From contig JAAYBI010000069.1 in assembly GCA_012718915.1 (NCBI GenBank), forward strand, positions 1 through 40,696: 40,696 nt of DNA. Direction: 5' to 3'. The DNA is from Clostridiaceae bacterium (GTDB lineage Bacteria; Bacillota; Clostridia; Saccharofermentanales; Saccharofermentanaceae). Below, piece by piece: positions 1,597 through 14,475 of this stretch; position 1 is the stretch's first letter; each line of letters begins with the position of its first letter. The notes under the pieces are model-generated. The model searched no databases. It saw nothing but the letters and a program-made list of their open reading frames with translations, and was not told where the DNA came from. The translations under genes were made by a program, and so were the position numbers.

Positions 1597-1625
1597 TTGA
1601 CGAATAGAATCATAAATGATACGAT
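1597..1625 (+). promoter_or_regulatory. Putative promoter of the RDD gene
   Basis: TTGACG (1597-1602), a 17-base spacer, then TACGAT (1620-1625). It lies about 68 bases before the ATG at 1693, which supports that start over the longer reading frame opening at 1597. Confidence 0.55.
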
Positions 1626-1692
1626 TACGTATTATTATCAAAGAAATAATTGCGTGCTCTTCACACAGATCAAACAGACGGAGGCTCCTCCC

Positions 1693-2247
1693 ATGAACGA
1701 CGCTCCCTTTTCTCGTCGATTTGCTGCCCTTTTCCTTGATCTGATCATCGTTGCTTCATTGTTGTGCGGTATTGTTTATCTCCTTGAATACTATTCGATT
1801 TTTAGCATAACTGTTCGCTTTTCCCGGGGAGAATCCACTGCATATTTGCAAGTTTACGTCTTCTACATTTGTTTTTACTTTATTTATGAATTATTGAGTA
1901 CTCTCCTACTACGTGCTACCCCGGGCAAAATCTTAGCAAATATTGAAACTGAATTTCCCGGCGAATTATTCATCGCTCGTTCCATTCTTCGCTCATTCTT
2001 AAAAACGTTAACAATTGCACTTGCACCGATAGGAATTCCCGTAAGCCTCATCTTTGGTCTTTCACAAAGCTCCGGTGTCGTCCACGATGCAATTTGCAAA
2101 TCCCAGGTTACCAACGAAACCAGATGCCCGAGGCTTTTTGGCATTCTTATTTTTGCCCTTTCAGTATCATGCTTTATCGTTTTTTACTTGCACTTTCAAG
2201 TGTATTTTTTCGATTTTCGCTCATTAAAAATGCCAACGCTTTACTAA
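1693..2247 (+). CDS. RDD family membrane protein
   Basis: A 184-residue integral membrane protein. The N-terminus (SRRFAALFLDLIIVASLL) carries the Arg and Asp that give RDD proteins their name, followed by hydrophobic segments near residues 13-35, 54-75, 110-130 and 155-175. TPGKILANIE after the second segment is the usual RDD signature. RDD proteins are poorly characterised; some have been linked to ion transport, but nothing here fixes a substrate. ATG at 1693 has GGAGG at 1680-1684, whereas an upstream in-frame TTG at 1597 has no ribosome binding site and overlaps the -35 box. A strong terminator follows. Confidence 0.85.
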   Translation: MNDAPFSRRFAALFLDLIIVASLLCGIVYLLEYYSIFSITVRFSRGESTAYLQVYVFYICFYFIYELLSTLLLRATPGKILANIETEFPGELFIARSILRSFLKTLTIALAPIGIPVSLIFGLSQSSGVVHDAICKSQVTNETRCPRLFGILIFALSVSCFIVFYLHFQVYFFDFRSLKMPTLY

Positions 2248-3457: not shown

Positions 3458-3913
3458 ATGACCAACGATATTGATCACAATTTGAACCAAACCAATCCGT
3501 CTGAAAATCGATTCATCTCAGGAGATAGATTTGACGGATTAATTGTATCAGATTACGTTGACAACATTTATGAAATGTCGACAGATGATACTACCGTAGT
3601 CGTCACCCAAAGAGTAATTTCGAAAGCATCGGATCGCTTGTGCTTAGGATTTCTTTTTCAGTGTACGCAGCCGGCACGCTTTCGATTAGATGTTTTGATT
3701 CCGGAGAATTGCATCAATGCGAATGTCTCTCTAAACGATCACGAATTAATCGGATACTTTTCAGAAGACCTGCCCGATAACCCCGAGTTCGTCATCAAGC
3801 CGACTTGCGACGGCAAAGACAAAGTCTCGACTTTGAAGCCCGGCGAATTCCAGTCGATTAATTTCCGATGGGAATCCGGCGACGTATTGAAGTTTTTCTT
3901 CTATTTCAATTGA
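3458..3913 (+). CDS. Small protein resembling the GH127 C-terminal beta-sandwich
   Basis: I do not recognise this 151-residue protein as a named family. Its second half follows the order of conserved elements in the beta-sandwich of GH127 (DUF1680) beta-L-arabinofuranosidases: RFRLDVLIP (74-82) resembles the strand with the consensus l.lRIP.W, NVSLN (89-93) resembles the v.vNG turn, and INFRWESGDVLKFFF (134-148) resembles the i.R.W..GD.v.l.l strand. It has no signal peptide, membrane segment or catalytic domain. It could be a free-standing carbohydrate-binding or accessory protein, a remnant of a larger enzyme, or coincidence of beta-rich sequence. GAGGG precedes the start and it has a good promoter, so it looks like an expressed gene. 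Confidence 0.7.
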   Translation: MTNDIDHNLNQTNPSENRFISGDRFDGLIVSDYVDNIYEMSTDDTTVVVTQRVISKASDRLCLGFLFQCTQPARFRLDVLIPENCINANVSLNDHELIGYFSEDLPDNPEFVIKPTCDGKDKVSTLKPGEFQSINFRWESGDVLKFFFYFN

Positions 3914-3928
3914 TATGCAATTCAGAAA

Positions 3929-5179
3929 TTATTCCGATTCGGTTTCTTTTGCACGAGGATCTTTTGCTACTTCAACTGTGTGTATCGGATCTAAGCGCAC
4001 TCCTTTATCGTACGAGGATGTCGGAACGCAGTTGTGAGAACCCTTGTACACTGACTCTAATAGAATGAACGCTACATTGTTAATTCGTTTCTCAAGCTGT
4101 TCCTTGCCGATTTCTTCTAACAAAAGGGTCGACGAATCCTGTATTGTCCCTCGAACAAAGCCTCCTGTGCGCTGAAGGTTCAGATTCTTTGTCTCTTTCA
4201 TTTGCTCAACCACCGGAAAATTATAATCATACGACTCAATAAACACGACCGGCACATTTTTTGCATCAAAAGGCAAATGATCGGAAGGCGTTAACGTCAC
4301 TTCTCGATAAATATCAACCTGACTATCACCGTTGACATCTACATAAGCTCCGGACATGTTGTATAGCAAATCCACTCCATTCTTCGAATTCAACATGTTG
4401 TCATAGACAACATCGTATGCTTCATAGAGTTTTCTGCGTTTCTCATACTTTTTACCCGGCTCCAATGAATTGCGTCCGGAGCTGGCATAAAGCTTATCTC
4501 CGGCATAAATACTTTCTATGCAATACATGACTTCTAGAGACAAGAAAGCCTCCTGATCCATCGAACCCAAAAAGAAATCTGAACCGGCGTAATTTGAAGA
4601 CGATGCTCCGAAAAACACCAGAACAACATCGTAAGCGTAGTTGTAGTTGACTGCTTGCTTAGCAAAAGTCATCAGCGCCGCCACACCGGAAGCATTATTT
4701 TGCAAGCCGTTATAATGTGGCAGGATCTCGCCCTCAGCGGGTTCGAAAAACGCCGGCTGAGGCGTATCATAATGTGCTCCGATCACGACTGTTTTTCGAA
4801 TCGGCAGATATTTCTCATCTGTTTCCCGCCGCATAAAACCTTCGCCCTCAATCCGGACTATATAATTCTGCGATGAAAGACCCTCAACAGAAAAATTCTG
4901 AGTTTCTACTTCGTAACCCATACTGATTAATTCGTCTCGGATCATCTCCCCGGCTTGCTTCTCTTGATATGAAAAAGAGTGACGGTTCGGGTAAGTGGTT
5001 GCCAGTTTCAGCGCGAATTCAGAGCCGTAATCCCCGTAAGCGGCGGGCTTGATATCTTCGTTGGCTGTATCAGAGCATGCACTTAAAGATATCGAAACCA
5101 GCGAAATGATTACGAGTAACATCGGTAAAAATCGTCCGGAAATTTTACTGAGTTTTTCAGTCGTTTTATGGATTGTCAT
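3929..5179 (-). CDS. M28-peptidase-like lipoprotein, catalytic residues replaced
   Basis: A 416-residue exported protein. The N-terminal hydrophobic stretch ends in a lipobox (ISLSAC), so Cys35 is the predicted lipid-anchored residue. The body aligns with family M28 zinc aminopeptidases: VVIGAHYDTPQ, then NGLQNNASGVAALM, then VFFGASSSNYAGSDFF, then SDHLPFDAKNVPVVFIE. Family members normally have DN(A/G)SG, an EE pair and an Asp before the strand; here these read NNASG (Asn161), SS (193-194) and Glu222. Only the first His (136) and last His (301) persist, so zinc binding and hydrolysis are unlikely. ATG at 5179 has GAGGT upstream; an in-frame ATG at 5191 has no such site. It lies 8 bases after the AroB-like gene and is probably co-transcribed with it. 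It may be a binding or scaffold protein. Confidence 0.85.
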   Translation of the reverse strand: MTIHKTTEKLSKISGRFLPMLLVIISLVSISLSACSDTANEDIKPAAYGDYGSEFALKLATTYPNRHSFSYQEKQAGEMIRDELISMGYEVETQNFSVEGLSSQNYIVRIEGEGFMRRETDEKYLPIRKTVVIGAHYDTPQPAFFEPAEGEILPHYNGLQNNASGVAALMTFAKQAVNYNYAYDVVLVFFGASSSNYAGSDFFLGSMDQEAFLSLEVMYCIESIYAGDKLYASSGRNSLEPGKKYEKRRKLYEAYDVVYDNMLNSKNGVDLLYNMSGAYVDVNGDSQVDIYREVTLTPSDHLPFDAKNVPVVFIESYDYNFPVVEQMKETKNLNLQRTGGFVRGTIQDSSTLLLEEIGKEQLEKRINNVAFILLESVYKGSHNCVPTSSYDKGVRLDPIHTVEVAKDPRAKETESE

Positions 5180-5187
5180 TATATACC

Positions 5188-6198
5188 TCATGTTGATAAT
5201 ATCATGCCGAGAGTGCGGTCAAAGTAAGATTGAGCCATCATTTTATTCATTCGCACGGGCCCGACAGAACCGTTATTATCTTTCATCATAATGGAAACGG
5301 AATCTTCTTGATAGTCCAATCGGCTGAGAATCCTTTTTGTCAAAGTTTCGCGAGATACACCATCTAATCTTATTGGTAGTTCAAGACGACGATAAAGCTC
5401 TTCAAACTTTGGTGAACCATTCATTGCCATCAGAGAAAGCGCCAGCGCTTCACCGGAATTGTACTTCAAAAATCGAAAATGCGTCTCGATAGCATCAGCG
5501 ATTTCTTTCCCGTAACACAATAGTTGCGGTTTCTCTTTTCGGATCTTCATTCCCGATCGAATGGCCGCCTCAATTAATCCGGTTAAATCACCGGGAACGG
5601 AAAGCCTCGTCAGTAATTCTTTGTCGACCAGCAATCCGTATAGAATAATCTGGGCGGTGCCGTTATTTATGATACGCTTCGAAAGCGACTGAAGAAAAGC
5701 GATGTCGATGATAACGTCGCTGACCTGAGCCTCAATCTGCAACAAATCCTTGTGACTTTGAAAACTCAAGTAAGCCTTGTTATTCTGAGATACTTCAACC
5801 ATCGAAAGTAGTGTAGTCGGTACAATGAGCGTTTGCATCGGTCGGTTTAGAATCCCGATGACGAAACGCGCGACGTCAATGAGTCCACCGCCACCCAAAA
5901 CAATCAGCAAATCGCGAGGACCGAATTCGATATCCAATAACCTCTCAATAATTGGCTTAATCGCGTCAATGGTCTTGGACATGGTGTTGCCATCTGCAAT
6001 GATTATAGATGGGTTTGTAACAATCGGACTTAGATGCTCGACTAATTCTTTCAGATAGTATCCCGATACTTCGCGATCCGTGAGAATAACAACTCTCGGT
6101 TGCGTAGTGAGTTTCAAAATATGCTCTGAAATGGAAGCCTTGGCAATATTATGACCAATAACAGCCCATTTGCCACTGCCGATATCCATGCGATTCAC
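5188..6198 (-). CDS. 3-dehydroquinate-synthase-like protein lacking metal ligands
   Basis: A 336-residue protein with the fold and motif order of AroB and related sugar-phosphate cyclases: a nucleotide-binding GGGGLIDVARF (about 102-112), then PTTLLSMVEVSQNNK, then FLQSLSKRIINNGTAQIILYG. The AroB zinc ligands are Glu in AEVIK, the first His in GHTFGHAIE and His in HGEAV. The equivalents here are Gln183, Lys231 and Ser248, the second His of GHTFGHAIE is Asp235, and VGGK is QNNK. Cyclase activity is therefore unlikely. The GTG start at 6198 sits 8 bases after GGAGG; TTG at 6213 and ATG at 6189 fit less well. It is the first gene of a unit with the M28-like lipoprotein and is divergent from gltX. 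A degenerate Fe-alcohol-dehydrogenase relative is an alternative reading. Confidence 0.82.
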   Translation of the reverse strand: MNRMDIGSGKWAVIGHNIAKASISEHILKLTTQPRVVILTDREVSGYYLKELVEHLSPIVTNPSIIIADGNTMSKTIDAIKPIIERLLDIEFGPRDLLIVLGGGGLIDVARFVIGILNRPMQTLIVPTTLLSMVEVSQNNKAYLSFQSHKDLLQIEAQVSDVIIDIAFLQSLSKRIINNGTAQIILYGLLVDKELLTRLSVPGDLTGLIEAAIRSGMKIRKEKPQLLCYGKEIADAIETHFRFLKYNSGEALALSLMAMNGSPKFEELYRRLELPIRLDGVSRETLTKRILSRLDYQEDSVSIMMKDNNGSVGPVRMNKMMAQSYFDRTLGMILST

Positions 6199-6353
6199 TT
6201 GATTGACCTCCAAAATTTCGCTAATGATAATAATATCACTTTTATTAATGCTCTGTGAATAGATATATCTTTATTCCACAGCGCTTTTCGTGTTTCTGAA
6301 ACGCGATTTTAATGGTAATATATGTATTTAGTATTACAGTGATGAGGTGTTCT

Positions 6354-7844
6354 ATGCCAAATTCAGCCATAATTTTTTCAGGCGTTCGCACTCGATTTGC
6401 GCCAAGCCCAACCGGATTTATGCACGTCGGAAATCTTCGCACGGCACTTTATGAATACTTGCTCGCCAAGTCCATGGGCGGAAGTTTCGTATTGAGAATT
6501 GAAGACACAGATCGTGAACGCCTCGTTGAAGGCGCAACGGACACTATTTTTCAGACTCTTAAGTGTGCCGGCCTGATCCATGACGAAGGTCCTGATATCG
6601 GAGGTCCCTGTGGTCCCTACGTACAAAGCGAGCGCATGCACCTTTATCGCCCGTATGCCGAGCAATTAGTTCGCGAGGGTAAAGCATATTACTGTTTTTG
6701 TACAAAGGAGCGTCTTGATCAACTAAGACTCTCTTCCGACAATCCTGATTCTGCAGGATATGATCGTCACTGCAGAACATTAAGCGACGATTTGGTCGCA
6801 GAGCAGCTTGCGTTGAATATGCCTCACGTCATTCGTCAGAAAGTCCCCCTTGAAGGCGTTACGACATTTTTTGATCATGTTTACGGTGAAATCAGCGTTC
6901 CTAATAAAGACTTAGAGGATCAGGTTCTTATTAAGGCAGATGGTTTCCCTACCTATAATTTTGCCAATATTGTCGACGACCATTTAATGGGTATTACTCA
7001 CGTTGTACGCGGAAGTGAATACTTGTCTTCGACGCCCAAGTATAATCTTCTGTATCAGGCATTTGGCTGGAACATTCCTGAGTATGTTCACCTTCCTCTG
7101 ATTCAAGGCAAAAACCCGGACGGTACCGTATCCAAACTTTCCAAGCGACACGGAGCTACCGGTTTTGAAGACTTAGTCGCCGAAGGATATTTACCGGAAG
7201 CCATAATCAATTATATTGCATTATTAGGTTGGTGCCCGAAAGACAACACCCAAGAAGTCTTTTCTCTGGAAGAATTGGTTCGTGCTTTTTCGATAGATGG
7301 GATAAGCAAGTCTCCGGCAACCTTCGATTATGACAAACTGGATTGGTTTAATTCAGAGTACATTCGTGCTATGGACGCGAGGGCTTTTTATGAACATGCT
7401 GCGCCGTATTACCGCCAACTTGGCGTTGACGAAGCTCTTAGCGCGACTTTACTCGAGGTATTACAGCCTCGAATCACAAAGTTCATAGAAATACCCGAAA
7501 AAATTTCTTATGTAAAAGCATTGCCTGAATATGATCTCAGTCTTTTCGAGCACAAGAAAAGCAAATCTACCATTGAAACGTCAATATCCATGTTAGGAAA
7601 ACTCACTGATCTTCTTTCTGACATATCAGAATGGAATAAAGATTCGCTGATGAGCCGCCTTACCGCTTTAGCAGAATCCGAAGGAGTCAAAAACGCACTT
7701 GTCATGTGGCCTTTGCGTATTGCAGTTACAGGAACCCTTGTAACCCCGGGTGGTGCGGTTGAGGCCTTATTGCTGATTGGACAGAAAGAATCGTTAAATC
7801 GAATAGAAATAGCAAGAGCGAGACTTTCAATATTTAACAATTAA
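6354..7844 (+). CDS. gltX: Glutamyl-tRNA synthetase
   Basis: Class I aminoacyl-tRNA synthetase that charges tRNA-Glu. The 496-residue protein opens with TRFAPSPTGFMHVGNLRTAL (the HIGH motif reads HVGN), has the GluRS segment LRIEDTDRERLVEGA, and carries the KMSKS-type motif VSKLSKRHGA. The C-terminal half is the alpha-helical anticodon-binding domain. ATG at 6354 follows GAGG with a 6-base gap; the earlier in-frame ATG at 6312 has no ribosome binding site and precedes the conserved N-terminus by 20 residues. glnS follows 19 bases downstream in the same direction, so the two are probably one transcript. Confidence 0.97.
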   Translation: MPNSAIIFSGVRTRFAPSPTGFMHVGNLRTALYEYLLAKSMGGSFVLRIEDTDRERLVEGATDTIFQTLKCAGLIHDEGPDIGGPCGPYVQSERMHLYRPYAEQLVREGKAYYCFCTKERLDQLRLSSDNPDSAGYDRHCRTLSDDLVAEQLALNMPHVIRQKVPLEGVTTFFDHVYGEISVPNKDLEDQVLIKADGFPTYNFANIVDDHLMGITHVVRGSEYLSSTPKYNLLYQAFGWNIPEYVHLPLIQGKNPDGTVSKLSKRHGATGFEDLVAEGYLPEAIINYIALLGWCPKDNTQEVFSLEELVRAFSIDGISKSPATFDYDKLDWFNSEYIRAMDARAFYEHAAPYYRQLGVDEALSATLLEVLQPRITKFIEIPEKISYVKALPEYDLSLFEHKKSKSTIETSISMLGKLTDLLSDISEWNKDSLMSRLTALAESEGVKNALVMWPLRIAVTGTLVTPGGAVEALLLIGQKESLNRIEIARARLSIFNN

Positions 7845-7863
7845 TAAACCGAAGAGGTGTGAG

Positions 7864-9537
7864 ATGAATCAGAGTAGCAATTTTATTTTCGATATTATTG
7901 AGCAGGATATTGCGCCCGGAGGACAGTTTTTCGGCAAGACCGTACATACTCGTTTTCCTCCCGAGCCGAACGGCTATCTTCATATAGGCCACGCCAAGGC
8001 ATTGGAAATCGATTTTGGTGCGGCGGAACGCTTCGGAGGACTTTGTAACCTCCGTATGGATGACACCAATCCGACCAAAGAAGACGAAGAATATGTCGAC
8101 GCTATCAAAGAAGATATTCGCTGGTTGGGTCACGACTGGGGCGATCGTTTTTACTATGCATCCGATTACTTCGAGCAGATGTATGAGTTTGCCAAAGAAT
8201 TGATTACCAAAGGTCTTGCATATGTATGTGAGCAAACACCGGAAGAGGTTCGACTGAATCGCGGCGATCTTTCTACTCCGGCAAAAAGTCCTTTTAGAGA
8301 CCGGCCGATTGAAGAAAGCATGGCGCTATTCGAAAAGATGCGAGACGGTGAATTCGAAGACGGCAAAATGACGCTCCGTGCCAAAATCGATTTGGCTTCC
8401 GGCAATTTTAACATGCGAGACCCCGTTATATATCGCATCAATCGCATCCGCCATCACAACACCGGTGATCGTTGGTGTATTTATCCGATGTATGATTTTG
8501 CTCACCCGATTGAGGACGCACTCGAAGGCATTACACATTCGCTATGTTCATTAGAATTCGAAGCGCATCGTCCGCTATATGATTGGGTCATCAACCATTG
8601 CTCGGTACCTTGTAAACCGCGCCAAATTGAGTTTGCCAGACTGGGTATCACGCACACAGTCATGTCCAAAAGAAAACTTCGCAATTTAATAGAACAAGGA
8701 ATCGTCGACGGTTGGGATGATCCACGCATGCCGACTCTTTGCGGACTAAGGCGTCGCGGTTACACGCCTTCTTCTATTCGCACTTTCCACGAGCGCAACG
8801 GTGTTTCAAAAGTTAACAGCGTTGTTGATTATGCTTTTCTGGAGCATTGTCTTCGTGAGGAATTGAATCGCACCGCATTTCGTGCCATGGCCGTTTTACA
8901 ACCGATTACGCTGATTATTGAGAATTATCCGGAGAATCAAACCGAAGTATTTACTGTTGAGAATAATCCCGAGAATCCGGAAGACGGAACCCGAGAAGTG
9001 AGTTTCTCAAAAAAATTATTTATTGAAGCCGATGATTTTCAAGAAGTCCCCGAGAAAAAGTACTTTCGACTTTTTCCCGGAAATGAAGTCCGCCTGAAGT
9101 CCGCATACGTCGTCAAGTGTATTCGCTGCGAAAAAGACAGCGCAGGTAAAGTCCACACGGTATACGCGACTTATGATCCCGACAGCCGCGGTGGAAATAC
9201 CGCGGACGGACGAAAAATCAAGTCAACCATTCACTGGGTAGACGCTGACACAGCTTTCAATGCCACCGTCAAGCTCTATGATCGTCTGTTTGATGTTGAG
9301 TCACCCGATCTTGCCGACTGTGACTACATTGCACATGTTCGCGACGACTCCGTTATAACCATAGAAAATGCAAAACTGGAAGCGTCTCTCCGGGATTGCC
9401 CGGATCAGGCTCGCTTCCAGTTCATGAGATTGGGCTATTTTTGTAAAGATGCTAAGTCGTCAAATCCTGACGAGCCGATTTTTATCCGGTCCGTCTCTCT
9501 CAAAGACAGTTTTCGACCGAAAAACGATACCCCGTGA
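7864..9537 (+). CDS. glnS: Glutaminyl-tRNA synthetase
   Basis: Class I synthetase that charges tRNA-Gln directly with glutamine. The 557-residue protein has TRFPPEPNGYLHIGHAKAL near the N-terminus (HIGH), MDDTNPTKEDEEY, and VMSKRKL (KMSKS), followed by the two beta-barrel anticodon domains expected of bacterial GlnRS (about residues 340-550). GAGGTG precedes the ATG. It is downstream of gltX. Its last 38 bases overlap the end of galM on the other strand, so no terminator separates the convergent genes. Many Bacillota lack GlnRS and use the GatCAB amidotransferase; a true GlnRS here implies tRNA-Gln is charged directly. Confidence 0.97.
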   Translation: MNQSSNFIFDIIEQDIAPGGQFFGKTVHTRFPPEPNGYLHIGHAKALEIDFGAAERFGGLCNLRMDDTNPTKEDEEYVDAIKEDIRWLGHDWGDRFYYASDYFEQMYEFAKELITKGLAYVCEQTPEEVRLNRGDLSTPAKSPFRDRPIEESMALFEKMRDGEFEDGKMTLRAKIDLASGNFNMRDPVIYRINRIRHHNTGDRWCIYPMYDFAHPIEDALEGITHSLCSLEFEAHRPLYDWVINHCSVPCKPRQIEFARLGITHTVMSKRKLRNLIEQGIVDGWDDPRMPTLCGLRRRGYTPSSIRTFHERNGVSKVNSVVDYAFLEHCLREELNRTAFRAMAVLQPITLIIENYPENQTEVFTVENNPENPEDGTREVSFSKKLFIEADDFQEVPEKKYFRLFPGNEVRLKSAYVVKCIRCEKDSAGKVHTVYATYDPDSRGGNTADGRKIKSTIHWVDADTAFNATVKLYDRLFDVESPDLADCDYIAHVRDDSVITIENAKLEASLRDCPDQARFQFMRLGYFCKDAKSSNPDEPIFIRSVSLKDSFRPKNDTP

Positions 9538-10705: not shown

Positions 10706-12934
10706 TCATTGACGATCAGAAGGAGGTTCTGCAGGAACAAACGCCTTGTGTTCCCTCTCTCTATCTTTCGCTTTCGCAGATTCATCCGCGAGTCGAATCA
10801 ACTCAATCTGGCTATCGTATTTTTTCTTGCCTCGTAAATCAAGCTTGTGATAAGTACCGTCAGAACAGAGCCAATGCGAACGAAGTGTATCTTTCAGCTC
10901 AATATCAAGCACTTCTTTGACTCTATTACGACACGCCTCATCCTCTATGGGGAACATTAACTCTACCCGACGATCTAAATTTCTGGGCATCCAGTCTGCC
11001 GAAGACAGATAAATATCTTCGGCGCCCTCATTGAAAAAGTAGTATATACGAGAGTGTTCTAAAAATCGTCCGGTAATCGAACATACTTTTATATTCTCAG
11101 ATAGCCCCGGAACTCCTGGACGCAAACAGCAAATTCCACGAACAATTAATTCAATTTTAACGCCGGCGTCCGACGCGTCGTAAAGTGCATCAATAATTTT
11201 GCCGTCGACCAAGGCATTCATTTTCGCTATGATATGCGCTTTTTTACCTTCCTTGGCATTTTTTATCTCTTTGCGAATTTTTTGAATAAAAAAGTCCTTC
11301 ATCCACAAGGGTGCCGGAACAAATCTTCTCCATTCGGGCGGCTGCGAAAAGCCCGACAGCATATTAAAAAATTCAGACGCATCCACGCCAAATGGCTCCG
11401 ACGCCGTAAACAATCCGATATCGGTATATATTTTGGCCGTGATGTTGTTATAATTGCCTGTACCCAAGTGGAGATATCGACGAATACCATCCTCTTCCTG
11501 TCGAACGACTAAGGTTATCTTGCTGTGTGTTTTGAGACCCACCAATCCGTAGATCACATGACAGCCGGCGTTCTCAAGTTTCTTCGCCCAGTTGATATTA
11601 TTCTCCTCGTCAAATCGAGCCTTTAATTCTACGAGCGCCATAACCTGTTTTCCGTTCTGCGCCGCCAGGGCCAAGCTCTCAATAATCGGAGAAGCTTTAC
11701 TGACACGATAAAGCGTCTGTTTGATAGCTAATACTTTCGGATCTCGCGCCGCCTGATCCAAAAACGCAGCGACCGGTTCAAAAGACTCATACGGCAGATG
11801 CATTAAGCGATCCTTTTCGCGTATCTGGTCTAAAATATTATCCGTACCATCAAACATCGACGGCTTTTGTGGTGTATGAGGTGCATCGCATAAAGCCGGA
11901 TAGCTATGGGCTATACCGGAATACATGCGCATCAAAAAAGTCAAATCGATCGGACCGGTAACGCAAAAAATATCTTTTCGATCGATTTCAAGTGCATCCG
12001 ATATATACTTCAATAAATTCAGGTCCATGTCCTCATTGATTTCCAAACGAATAATTTCACCATAACGACGCATACGAACTTGCTCTTCAATTTCTTTAAG
12101 CAAGTCCTCCGCTTCGTCTTCATCTATATCGAGGTCCGCATTTCGCATCACTCTGTAAAACCCGGTCGAAATAATATCCACACCGGTAAATAGGAGATGA
12201 ATATTCGCTCGAATAATTTGCTCAATGGGTACAAATCCGATTCCGTTTGACGTTCTGAACTCAAAAAGTCTCGGTACAACTGTCGGGACTTGAAGGGTCG
12301 CAAACAATAGCTCCTCATCTCCAGCCGAAATAGAATTAACAGAAGTCGAAATATCTTCGACATTTCGGCGCACGGCCAATATACAAATATTGAGTTGCCT
12401 ACTGTATATAAGCGGAAAAGGTCGAGACACATCAACGGCCATCGGTGTCAGTATAGGATATAGCGTCGACATAAAGTATCGATCCGCCAATGCCTTTGCC
12501 TTTTTATCCAATTGTTCGTAATCAAGAATACTGATTCCGTGAACTTGAAGAGAAGGCAGAAGTGATCTTGAATATGTTGAATACATCAGCGCCATACTGC
12601 TTCTTGTTTTTTGATCAATTTTTTCAAGTTGCTCGTCCACCGTCAATCCGGATATGTCACGCTCGTTGTAGTGAATGCTCTGCATATCCCTTAATGACGC
12701 AACTCGAACAATATAGAATTCATCTAAATTCGATGCAGTAATTGATAGAAACTTGATACGCTCCAGCAAGGGATGTTTCGTATCTCTCGATTCAAAAAGA
12801 ATTCTGTCATTGAATTCAAGCCAACTGAGTTCTCTGTTGAAAAAACGCTCGGGATTAGACTCAATGCCGGCATTATCCGTATTCTTTTTATCGCCGGTCT
12901 TCTGAGATTTTTTCTTTTCATTCTTGGAATTCAT
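10706..12934 (-). CDS. ppk1: Polyphosphate kinase 1
   Basis: Makes inorganic polyphosphate from ATP, reversibly. The 742-residue protein has the four-domain Ppk1 layout: N domain with RFFNRELSWLEFNDRIL (30-46) and SNLDEFYIVRVA (68-79), head domain, and two C-terminal phospholipase-D-like domains. H470 in LKTHSK is the expected phosphorylated histidine, H489 in YLHLGTGNYN the second active-site histidine, and FLEHSRIYYF and YLSSADWMPRNLDRRVE match later conserved blocks. The 17 or so N-terminal residues are Lys-rich and probably disordered. Its ATG overlaps the ppx stop (ATGA) and its AGGAGG lies inside ppx, so translation is coupled: synthesis and breakdown enzymes are made together. Confidence 0.97.
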   Translation of the reverse strand: MNSKNEKKKSQKTGDKKNTDNAGIESNPERFFNRELSWLEFNDRILFESRDTKHPLLERIKFLSITASNLDEFYIVRVASLRDMQSIHYNERDISGLTVDEQLEKIDQKTRSSMALMYSTYSRSLLPSLQVHGISILDYEQLDKKAKALADRYFMSTLYPILTPMAVDVSRPFPLIYSRQLNICILAVRRNVEDISTSVNSISAGDEELLFATLQVPTVVPRLFEFRTSNGIGFVPIEQIIRANIHLLFTGVDIISTGFYRVMRNADLDIDEDEAEDLLKEIEEQVRMRRYGEIIRLEINEDMDLNLLKYISDALEIDRKDIFCVTGPIDLTFLMRMYSGIAHSYPALCDAPHTPQKPSMFDGTDNILDQIREKDRLMHLPYESFEPVAAFLDQAARDPKVLAIKQTLYRVSKASPIIESLALAAQNGKQVMALVELKARFDEENNINWAKKLENAGCHVIYGLVGLKTHSKITLVVRQEEDGIRRYLHLGTGNYNNITAKIYTDIGLFTASEPFGVDASEFFNMLSGFSQPPEWRRFVPAPLWMKDFFIQKIRKEIKNAKEGKKAHIIAKMNALVDGKIIDALYDASDAGVKIELIVRGICCLRPGVPGLSENIKVCSITGRFLEHSRIYYFFNEGAEDIYLSSADWMPRNLDRRVELMFPIEDEACRNRVKEVLDIELKDTLRSHWLCSDGTYHKLDLRGKKKYDSQIELIRLADESAKAKDREREHKAFVPAEPPSDRQ

Positions 12935-14475
12935 TTTGTTGGCCTCCTAAGACGAAGACTTGGAGTTACGCCAAACACCTGACTGTAGAGTACACGTTTC
13001 TGTTCAAAAGCCCACTCCTCAAACGTCAAATCATAGGCGCTGTCACAAAGAATGGTCAGCGAATCCGTGCTTGCTGTAATCGATGTGCTTCGAATTTTTT
13101 GACGGTGCGACGCATCCATCGCATCTGCGATACGCAATATTCCGGTCAGTTTTGAGACCAGCATTTTTGTTTCGGATGGCAAGTAGGTATAAAACCGATC
13201 GGAAAACATCTCCGGCTTTGCATAAAACCTTGCGCAGCAGGCAACGACTTCACGCTCATTTTCATTGAGGCCAATCAACTCCGTCGTGTTAATGATGTGA
13301 TACGACCGGGAACCGTGTTTGCTGACATGAATATATTTACCTACCTCATGAAGAATGACGGCGATTCGTAATAGCAAGCGCTCTTGTGAGCCCATACCGT
13401 GATACTTAACACTGGAATCAAAAATTGAAAGCGCATGCTTTTCGACATTCTCCGTATGCTTCTTATCACTTCGATAACGTTTGGCGATATGCCTTGCAGC
13501 TGCAATTAAGTCGAGTTCCGGATCCAGTTTGAGCTTGAACCCCCAGGAATCGTAGGCCAAATGATACGCGACACCGTCACTTAATGAGGCCGCCGGTAAA
13601 TGCACGCCATCCAATCCGGTGTAGTCCAGCATTTTCTTAATTAGTATGGCTGTCGGCAGCAACAGCGAAGCAATCAAAGAAGGCACATTATGCGTCAAGG
13701 AAAGATCGGTCGATTTTGTCCGGAGCAAGAGTTCATAGACATCCAAAAACTGCTTCTTGGTCAAAAAACAATATGCTCGACTCGACAATCCCGCTAAAGT
13801 CTTGATGAATCCGATATTTCCACCAAATGCAATAAACTCCTTATAACTAATGCCCTTAGGCTCAACTGAGTGATAATCATCCAAATCTTGAGAAATAAAT
13901 TCTTCAAGAACTTCTGTGTAGTGAGTCGTCTTGCGCTCTAAATCTGACAATAACTCACTGACACGCAGAGACCCCAAAAGCATATTCTGGCTAAAAACAA
14001 ACTCCGACTTATCATAAACGGTAGCCTGAATGCTTCCGGCTCCGATATCAAGCATCATCGTACCGTTCCGAATGATGTCGACAAAGTCCGGCTGGTCTTC
14101 TTTGACCGCTAAATTATGATAATAGCGCTCTTGGGCATTATCAATAACCTTCACCTTAAAATCTGTCCGCAACCGAATCTGCTCAACCAAAAAATCTTTG
14201 TTTCTGGCCTCGCGAAAAGAACTGGTCGCGACACAAACCGCTTTTGCAACACCGTACTCCTTCATCTTCATGCGATATCCGTCGAGAATTTCACAAAACT
14301 CGGCAATCTGTTCTGCCGTTACATAGCCGTCACGATATGTCTTGGCACCAAATGAAAAATAGGTCCGAACAGACTCTACTTCCCTGGGCTTACGATTGGG
14401 AAAAGTTTCAAATATCTTGAGTCTTAATGCAAGTGACCCAAAATCAATGATTGCAATAAAAGGGTCCTTAGACAT
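12931..14475 (-). CDS. ppx: Exopolyphosphatase / Ppx-GppA family phosphatase
   Basis: Predicted to release phosphate from polyphosphate ends, and possibly to hydrolyse pppGpp as some relatives do. The 514-residue protein has an actin-like N-terminal domain: AIIDFGSLALRLKIF (8-22) is the first phosphate loop and MMLDIGAGSIQATVYD the second. Residues about 310-500 form the HD-type helical domain, with ILHEVGKYIHVSKHG where many relatives have HD, so the metal-binding aspartate reads Glu. It is the first gene of the ppx-ppk1 pair, with AGGTGG before the ATG and a good promoter. Which activity it has cannot be decided from sequence. Confidence 0.93.
   Translation of the reverse strand: MSKDPFIAIIDFGSLALRLKIFETFPNRKPREVESVRTYFSFGAKTYRDGYVTAEQIAEFCEILDGYRMKMKEYGVAKAVCVATSSFREARNKDFLVEQIRLRTDFKVKVIDNAQERYYHNLAVKEDQPDFVDIIRNGTMMLDIGAGSIQATVYDKSEFVFSQNMLLGSLRVSELLSDLERKTTHYTEVLEEFISQDLDDYHSVEPKGISYKEFIAFGGNIGFIKTLAGLSSRAYCFLTKKQFLDVYELLLRTKSTDLSLTHNVPSLIASLLLPTAILIKKMLDYTGLDGVHLPAASLSDGVAYHLAYDSWGFKLKLDPELDLIAAARHIAKRYRSDKKHTENVEKHALSIFDSSVKYHGMGSQERLLLRIAVILHEVGKYIHVSKHGSRSYHIINTTELIGLNENEREVVACCARFYAKPEMFSDRFYTYLPSETKMLVSKLTGILRIADAMDASHRQKIRSTSITASTDSLTILCDSAYDLTFEEWAFEQKRVLYSQVFGVTPSLRLRRPTK

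Follow-up and report, generated by a model that had tools for sequence, protein, structure and literature searches.

Two adjacent genes of a Clostridiaceae bacterium (GTDB family Saccharofermentanaceae) encode a protein with the fold of 3-dehydroquinate synthase (DHQ synthase, DHQS), an enzyme of the shikimate pathway, and a predicted surface lipoprotein with the fold of M28 peptidases, both lacking the catalytic residues of their relatives. The two genes are a real functional unit and not decaying genes, because adjacency and strong selection have been kept throughout the family. The pair is probably co-translated and vertically inherited as a unit of one order of Clostridia, and it is a real, conserved and apparently undescribed combination of known folds. 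As a whole explanation we favor, at slightly less than even odds (a probability of roughly 0.45), a co-translated surface pseudopeptidase that acts as a receptor or adaptor, together with a zinc-free, NAD(H)-binding cytosolic input. The stretch of DNA analyzed, referred to here as the window, comprises 40,696 nucleotides (assembly GCA_012718915.1, contig JAAYBI010000069.1, positions 1 to 40,696) and comes from a 2.2 Mb metagenome-type assembly that is 96% complete.

Both genes have intact frames and lie on the reverse strand (Table 1) where the original prediction had located them, adjacent, on one strand and separated by 8 bases; sequence and open reading frames agree with this layout. The mechanical open reading frame of the DHQS-like gene begins with TTG at 6213. 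The GTG at 6198 is preferred as the start because GGAGGT stands 8 nt upstream of it. For the M28-like gene, the second ATG (5179) is most likely used, with GAGGT just before it. This GAGGT overlaps the stop codon of the DHQS-like gene (TGA at 5188) and can serve as a ribosome-binding site, an arrangement consistent with translational coupling. Note that residue numbers for both window proteins refer to the longer mechanical frames (starts at 6213 and 5191). An Rfam search of the whole window found no RNA element. Promoter and terminator scans of the window yielded nothing beyond consensus matches, with 17 promoter-like sites compared with a mean of 7.0 in shuffled sequence, and these were not counted as evidence.

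Table 1. The gene pair and its flanks, in window coordinates
Feature	Position	Strand	Description	Basis
151-aa protein gene	3458..3913	+	beta-sandwich-like, weakly resembling the middle domain of GH127; next to the M28-like 3' end	
M28-like lipoprotein gene	3929..5179	-	416 aa from second ATG; mechanical ORF to 5191	
Spacer, DHQS-like stop to M28-like start	5180..5187	-	8 bases	sequence
DHQS-like gene	5188..6198	-	336 aa, predicted cytosolic; retains the NAD site but neither the zinc ligands nor the catalytic His	
gltX and glnS	6312..9537	+	divergent from the pair, upstream	ORFs, neighbourhoods

The DHQS-like protein matched DHQ_synthase (PF01761) at 61.7 bits, above the Pfam cut-off, and Fe-ADH (PF00465) at 23 bits, short of the required 31.3; it fell far below the cut-off of the NCBI aroB equivalog model. 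Its AlphaFold2 model (pLDDT 92) has the DHQS fold over the full length, the best structural match being DHQS with NAD (5eks; Z 35.6, rmsd 2.5, 329 residues). Fe-ADH enzymes matched at Z 23-24, well under this value. The zinc ligands E194, H271 and H287 (in what we take to be Aspergillus DHQS numbering, as for H275) read Q188, K236 and S253 in the window protein, and H275 reads D240. Among 57 distinct relatives, none of the three ligands is kept in 45, one in 10, two in 1 and all three in 1; the zinc site is thus lost in 55 of the 57 sequences, while 24 of 24 ordinary AroB proteins retain every ligand. K152, K197, N268 and H275 (catalytic or substrate positions) vary freely among the relatives and are invariant in the 24 AroB controls. 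The NAD site, by comparison, is invariant or shows a single gap in the 57 relatives (D46, K80, G107-G109, D113, P132 and T133), so that the family has the Asp, Lys, GGGxxxD and PTT elements of NAD binding. K155 is likewise invariant or nearly so. Arg247 is present in 57 of 57 sequences and is not conserved in AroB; that is, it is new. In Candida Aro1, a double His-to-Lys replacement at the metal site abolishes DHQS activity (PMC9074039). The idea that the protein is a second AroB serving shikimate synthesis was rejected, since the zinc site is gone and a genuine aroB (158 bits) is found on another contig of the same genome.

The DHQ synthase active site of the protein is lost, which is less than a demonstrable loss of all chemistry. 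The original prediction had called it a pseudoenzyme. This stands for the DHQS active site and is unproven beyond it, given that maleylacetate reductases, members of the same superfamily, are active without metal and have Asn or Arg where the ligand Asp would be; members of FeADH2 have Gln there (PMC5125639). In a comparable way, the DHQS-like protein may be an oxidoreductase that uses NAD(P)H, needs no metal and acts on a new substrate, the M28-like protein binding a substrate or signal of the same pathway. This is the main rival explanation, and we regard it as possible, if rather unlikely. The fully kept NAD site, the new and invariant Arg247 and strong purifying selection all suit such an enzyme, as does the zinc ligand at an assumed matching position, where 26 of the 57 sequences have Gln and 10 have Arg (36 in all). 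However, K152, N268, H275 and the zinc positions vary freely, and except for Arg247 and the retained Lys155 there is no fixed replacement of the kind expected of a new active site; the Fe-ADH score below the Pfam cut-off also speaks against it. The retained NAD residues would fit an active metal-free oxidoreductase and a sensor equally well, and in sequence a DHQS-like sensor and a metal-free dehydrogenase would look alike.

The M28-like protein matched Peptidase_M28 (PF04389) at 42.1 bits, above the Pfam cut-off, and was far below the cut-offs of NCBI aminopeptidase equivalog models; against PRK10199, which is presumably E. coli Iap, it reached 47.6 bits for a cut-off of 298. The best structural match of its AlphaFold2 model (pLDDT 90) was AaaA (9oqa; Z 35.6, 27% identity), which together with the Pfam match identifies the M28 fold. 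Other M28 aminopeptidases and glutaminyl cyclases gave Z 25-30 and transferrin receptor 1, a pseudopeptidase, gave Z of about 26. Nicastrin was absent among the structural matches listed, which says nothing against likeness. The signal peptide carries a lipobox (LSAC), and Cys39 (long form) is invariant in 30 aligned relatives. Signal peptide aside, neither product of the pair is predicted to span the membrane, and the two would reside on opposite sides of it, in line with the expectation of one cytosolic and one extracellular protein.

In the window protein the two-metal set His/Asp/Glu/Asp/His is incomplete and reads H140/N165/S198/E226/H305: the bridging Asp is replaced by N165, the Glu-Glu(-Glu) run by SSS (197-199) and the fourth ligand Asp by E226. 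The general-base Glu, S197 here, is absent in 84 of 85 M28-like relatives, the neighbouring ligand Glu is gone in nearly all paired members, and the remaining ligands drift across the 85. Among ordinary M28 proteins, 11 of 13 kept the complete set with the base. The residue tables, with their controls, thus bear out for both proteins the claim of intact enzymes that have lost catalytic residues. Could the M28-like protein still be a metallopeptidase with an altered site, using one metal or a substituted mechanism? All 56 paired members examined keep His140 and 32 keep the bridging Asp, and AaaA retains 46% activity when the first Glu of its EEE run is replaced by Ala (PMC3426542). Replacement of the third Glu by Ala, however, leaves 7% (PMC3426542), and in the window protein each of the three EEE positions of this closest solved relative is occupied by Ser. 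With both the general base and the neighbouring ligand gone, we consider a working peptidase very improbable. Part of the relatives do retain three of the metal ligands, and residual metal binding is possible for these. What is predicted for the M28-like protein is a non-catalytic fold on the outer surface, as in transferrin receptor 1 and nicastrin.

Distribution was assessed by profile searches, with membership of the DHQS-like clade set at 250 bits or more. This clade extends throughout the window's family and into some genera of one sister family; a sample of the class outside these gave no match above 217 bits, and those matches were ordinary AroB. Note that scanning named genomes with the single protein gave no DHQS-like match, and that the alignment query did find relatives. 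The M28-like clade is present in every one of the order's 30 genera and in 178 of its 188 genomes; in the class sample outside the order, no score exceeded 103 bits. Among the relatives with names are Saccharofermentans, Mageeibacillus and Candidatus Scatonaster, and many come from rumen and gut.

The M28-like gene lies directly downstream, on the same strand, in 112 of the 116 genomes that have the DHQS-like gene. The other four comprise two in which the genes are adjacent at contig ends (G005 and G180), one that is unlisted, and one that is rearranged (G182, locus L159), with an AlaX-like gene between the pair and the M28-like gene reversed. Spacing in 56 same-strand relatives ranges from -38 to +78 nt (median 3), and overlap or tight spacing persists down to about 30% protein identity. 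Chance adjacency was rejected on the basis of the 112 conserved cases. For independent sister pairs, dN/dS was 0.036-0.113 for the DHQS-like gene and 0.041-0.158 for the M28-like gene; dS was saturated in the remaining pairs. The frames of both genes are intact across more than 100 genomes. The original prediction would have fallen if the pair had not been conserved in relatives, or if both genes had shown relaxed selection and premature stops. Neither outcome occurred: the neighbourhoods keep the pair together and selection is not relaxed on either gene where dN/dS can be computed. Lost catalytic residues are what two randomly degenerating leftovers would show, but dN/dS of 0.04-0.16 where computable, the intact frames in over 100 genomes and the newly invariant residues allow this idea to be practically dismissed. 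Recent decay of the pair was rejected on the same selection values and intact frames.

It is also conceivable that the genes have no functional tie and are joined merely through inherited order beside gltX and glnS. These head-to-head neighbours are kept in the window's family, gene order in the region is fairly conserved, and the DHQS-like gene borders gltX/glnS in 23 of the 26 loci that hold both. In other families, however, gltX and glnS lie outside the unit, and in the sister family the flanks differ (an Rrf2-type regulator upstream, NfeD/SPFH downstream) and the pair stays. Overlap or tight spacing at about 30% protein identity argues in the same direction. Furthermore, genomes of the family without one gene are without the other, except for one contig-end case: in the seven where the M28-like gene is missing, the DHQS-like gene is missing too. 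Co-loss would fit this pattern but is unproven, because all seven genomes are incomplete (64-88%). Inherited order as the sole link is therefore quite unlikely, and a functional unit is preferred.

Phylogenetic analysis placed the DHQS-like proteins in one clade (support 100/100) on a long stem, apart from the AroB proteins of the order. Two intermediates, L158 and L159, fall outside the remainder of this clade, although the placement of L158, a long branch, is unsure. In L159 all three zinc ligands are still present together with the new Arg motif, and an M28-like gene is nearby. L158 has lost two of the zinc ligands. In 29 members of the order that lack a DHQS-like partner, the general base of the M28-like protein is absent without exception. 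Since the M28-like protein is dead in partnerless genera and zinc ligands were lost stepwise, the first event was most likely the loss of peptidase catalysis in the order's ancestor; the DHQS-like gene most likely joined later, in one part of the order only, and its metal ligands disappeared stepwise afterwards. The original prediction had argued for joint repurposing over random decay. Random decay is indeed refuted, and the joint part requires correction, in that the M28-like protein lost catalysis earlier and independently of its partner.

Downstream of the M28-like gene, sister families carry genes for NfeD and/or SPFH (stomatin-type) proteins in the same orientation, and this is the usual arrangement in genera without the DHQS-like gene. 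In one genus with the DHQS-like gene, NfeD lies 4 nt away. Three lineages that lack the DHQS-like gene have a gap of 15-180 nt to NfeD/SPFH, and the gap is larger in others. Four loci of a sister-family genus, g7 (L092, L093, L160 and L162), have a compact run of DHQS-like, M28-like, NfeD and SPFH genes, with overlaps or 4-nt gaps among the first three. In L159 (G182:C101, 5935-10297), the DHQS-like gene with intact zinc ligands (5935-6975) and the adjoining AlaX-like gene are followed by the M28-like gene on the opposite strand and then by NfeD and SPFH. NfeD-SPFH operons are known and have been tied to membrane scaffolding and the FtsH protease, and the available part of the published operon survey contains no M28 gene (PMC2636767). 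SPFH genes of the window's genome are on other contigs. Because the M28-like gene is no longer beside NfeD/SPFH, the link may be at most historical in the window's own family.

Wherever a paired locus also has the gene for the 151-aa protein (12 of 12 loci), this gene adjoins the M28-like gene. The adjacency is seen in three genera of the family and in some other genera. The gene is convergent in some genera, and in another it points the same way, overlapping or as little as 4 nt apart; it is a possible third member of the unit. An RDD-family membrane protein gene near the pair (window 1597-2247, forward strand) recurs near it in 12 loci. Further away (window 10706-14475, reverse strand), genes for a probable polyphosphate kinase and a Ppx/GppA-like phosphatase, named from sequence, overlap by 4 bases.

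For the favored explanation we propose the following mechanism. Both products would probably be made from one message. The M28-like lipoprotein would act as a surface receptor or adaptor, holding peptides or protein termini uncut in the old peptidase groove. A binding role is proposed because other M28 pseudopeptidases bind proteins: the ectodomains of transferrin receptor and nicastrin do so. The ancestral partner of the M28-like protein would have been the NfeD/SPFH membrane-scaffold operon that still lies 3' of its gene in sister families. On the cytosolic side, the DHQS-like protein may bind NAD(H) without metal and give redox or metabolite input, as a sensor or scaffold, to the same membrane process. 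A more specific version is doubtful: a two-compartment unit, working at first through an SPFH/NfeD membrane scaffold, in which a cytosolic, metal-free and NAD(H)-reading DHQS fold and a peptide-binding pseudopeptidase lipoprotein tie redox state to recognition of peptides or proteins at the surface. If true, this sensing unit would combine two enzymes that have unrelated folds and were disabled independently.

In literature searches, mostly outside subscription journals, neither the two families nor their pairing turned up, as the original prediction of an undescribed system had anticipated. To our knowledge, pseudoenzymes have mostly been studied singly and in eukaryotes. Here two unrelated folds would have been disabled in turn and then fixed in one operon, in more than 100 species. 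Intermediates are alive, namely L159 with its three zinc ligands and sister genera with a dead peptidase and no partner; the order of events and the reason why dead enzymes are kept are therefore directly testable. Routine annotation likely calls the pair a DHQ synthase and an aminopeptidase, because general domain models match both proteins.

Comparison with known systems places each protein near a characterized family and apart from it. AroB (PF01761, TIGR01357) shares with the DHQS-like protein the whole-length fold and the NAD residues and supplies its closest known sequences; in contrast to AroB, the DHQS-like proteins have neither zinc ligands nor catalytic His, carry the new Arg247 and form their own clade beside a real aroB. 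Maleylacetate reductases and other metal-free members of the DHQ-FeADH superfamily resemble it in fold, in the NAD site and in having another residue, often Gln or Arg, in place of a metal ligand; this combination of replaced ligand and kept NAD site is found in the DHQS-like protein when compared with the published enzymes (PMC5125639), although by sequence it belongs to the DHQS branch and not to Fe-ADH. The M28C aminopeptidases (E. coli Iap and P. aeruginosa AaaA) have the fold and the closest sequences to the M28-like protein, which unlike them has lost the general base and most metal ligands and, unlike AaaA, is predicted to be lipid-anchored and is no autotransporter. Transferrin receptor 1 and nicastrin offer an M28 fold without catalysis as an ectodomain, as predicted for the M28-like protein; they are eukaryotic membrane proteins with other domains, and the residue losses probably arose independently. 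Finally, NfeD-SPFH operons of the QmcA/stomatin type are approached by the sister families, in which the M28-like gene directly precedes NfeD/SPFH, often by 4-180 nt, unlike the M28-like gene of the window, which stands apart from the SPFH genes of its genome.
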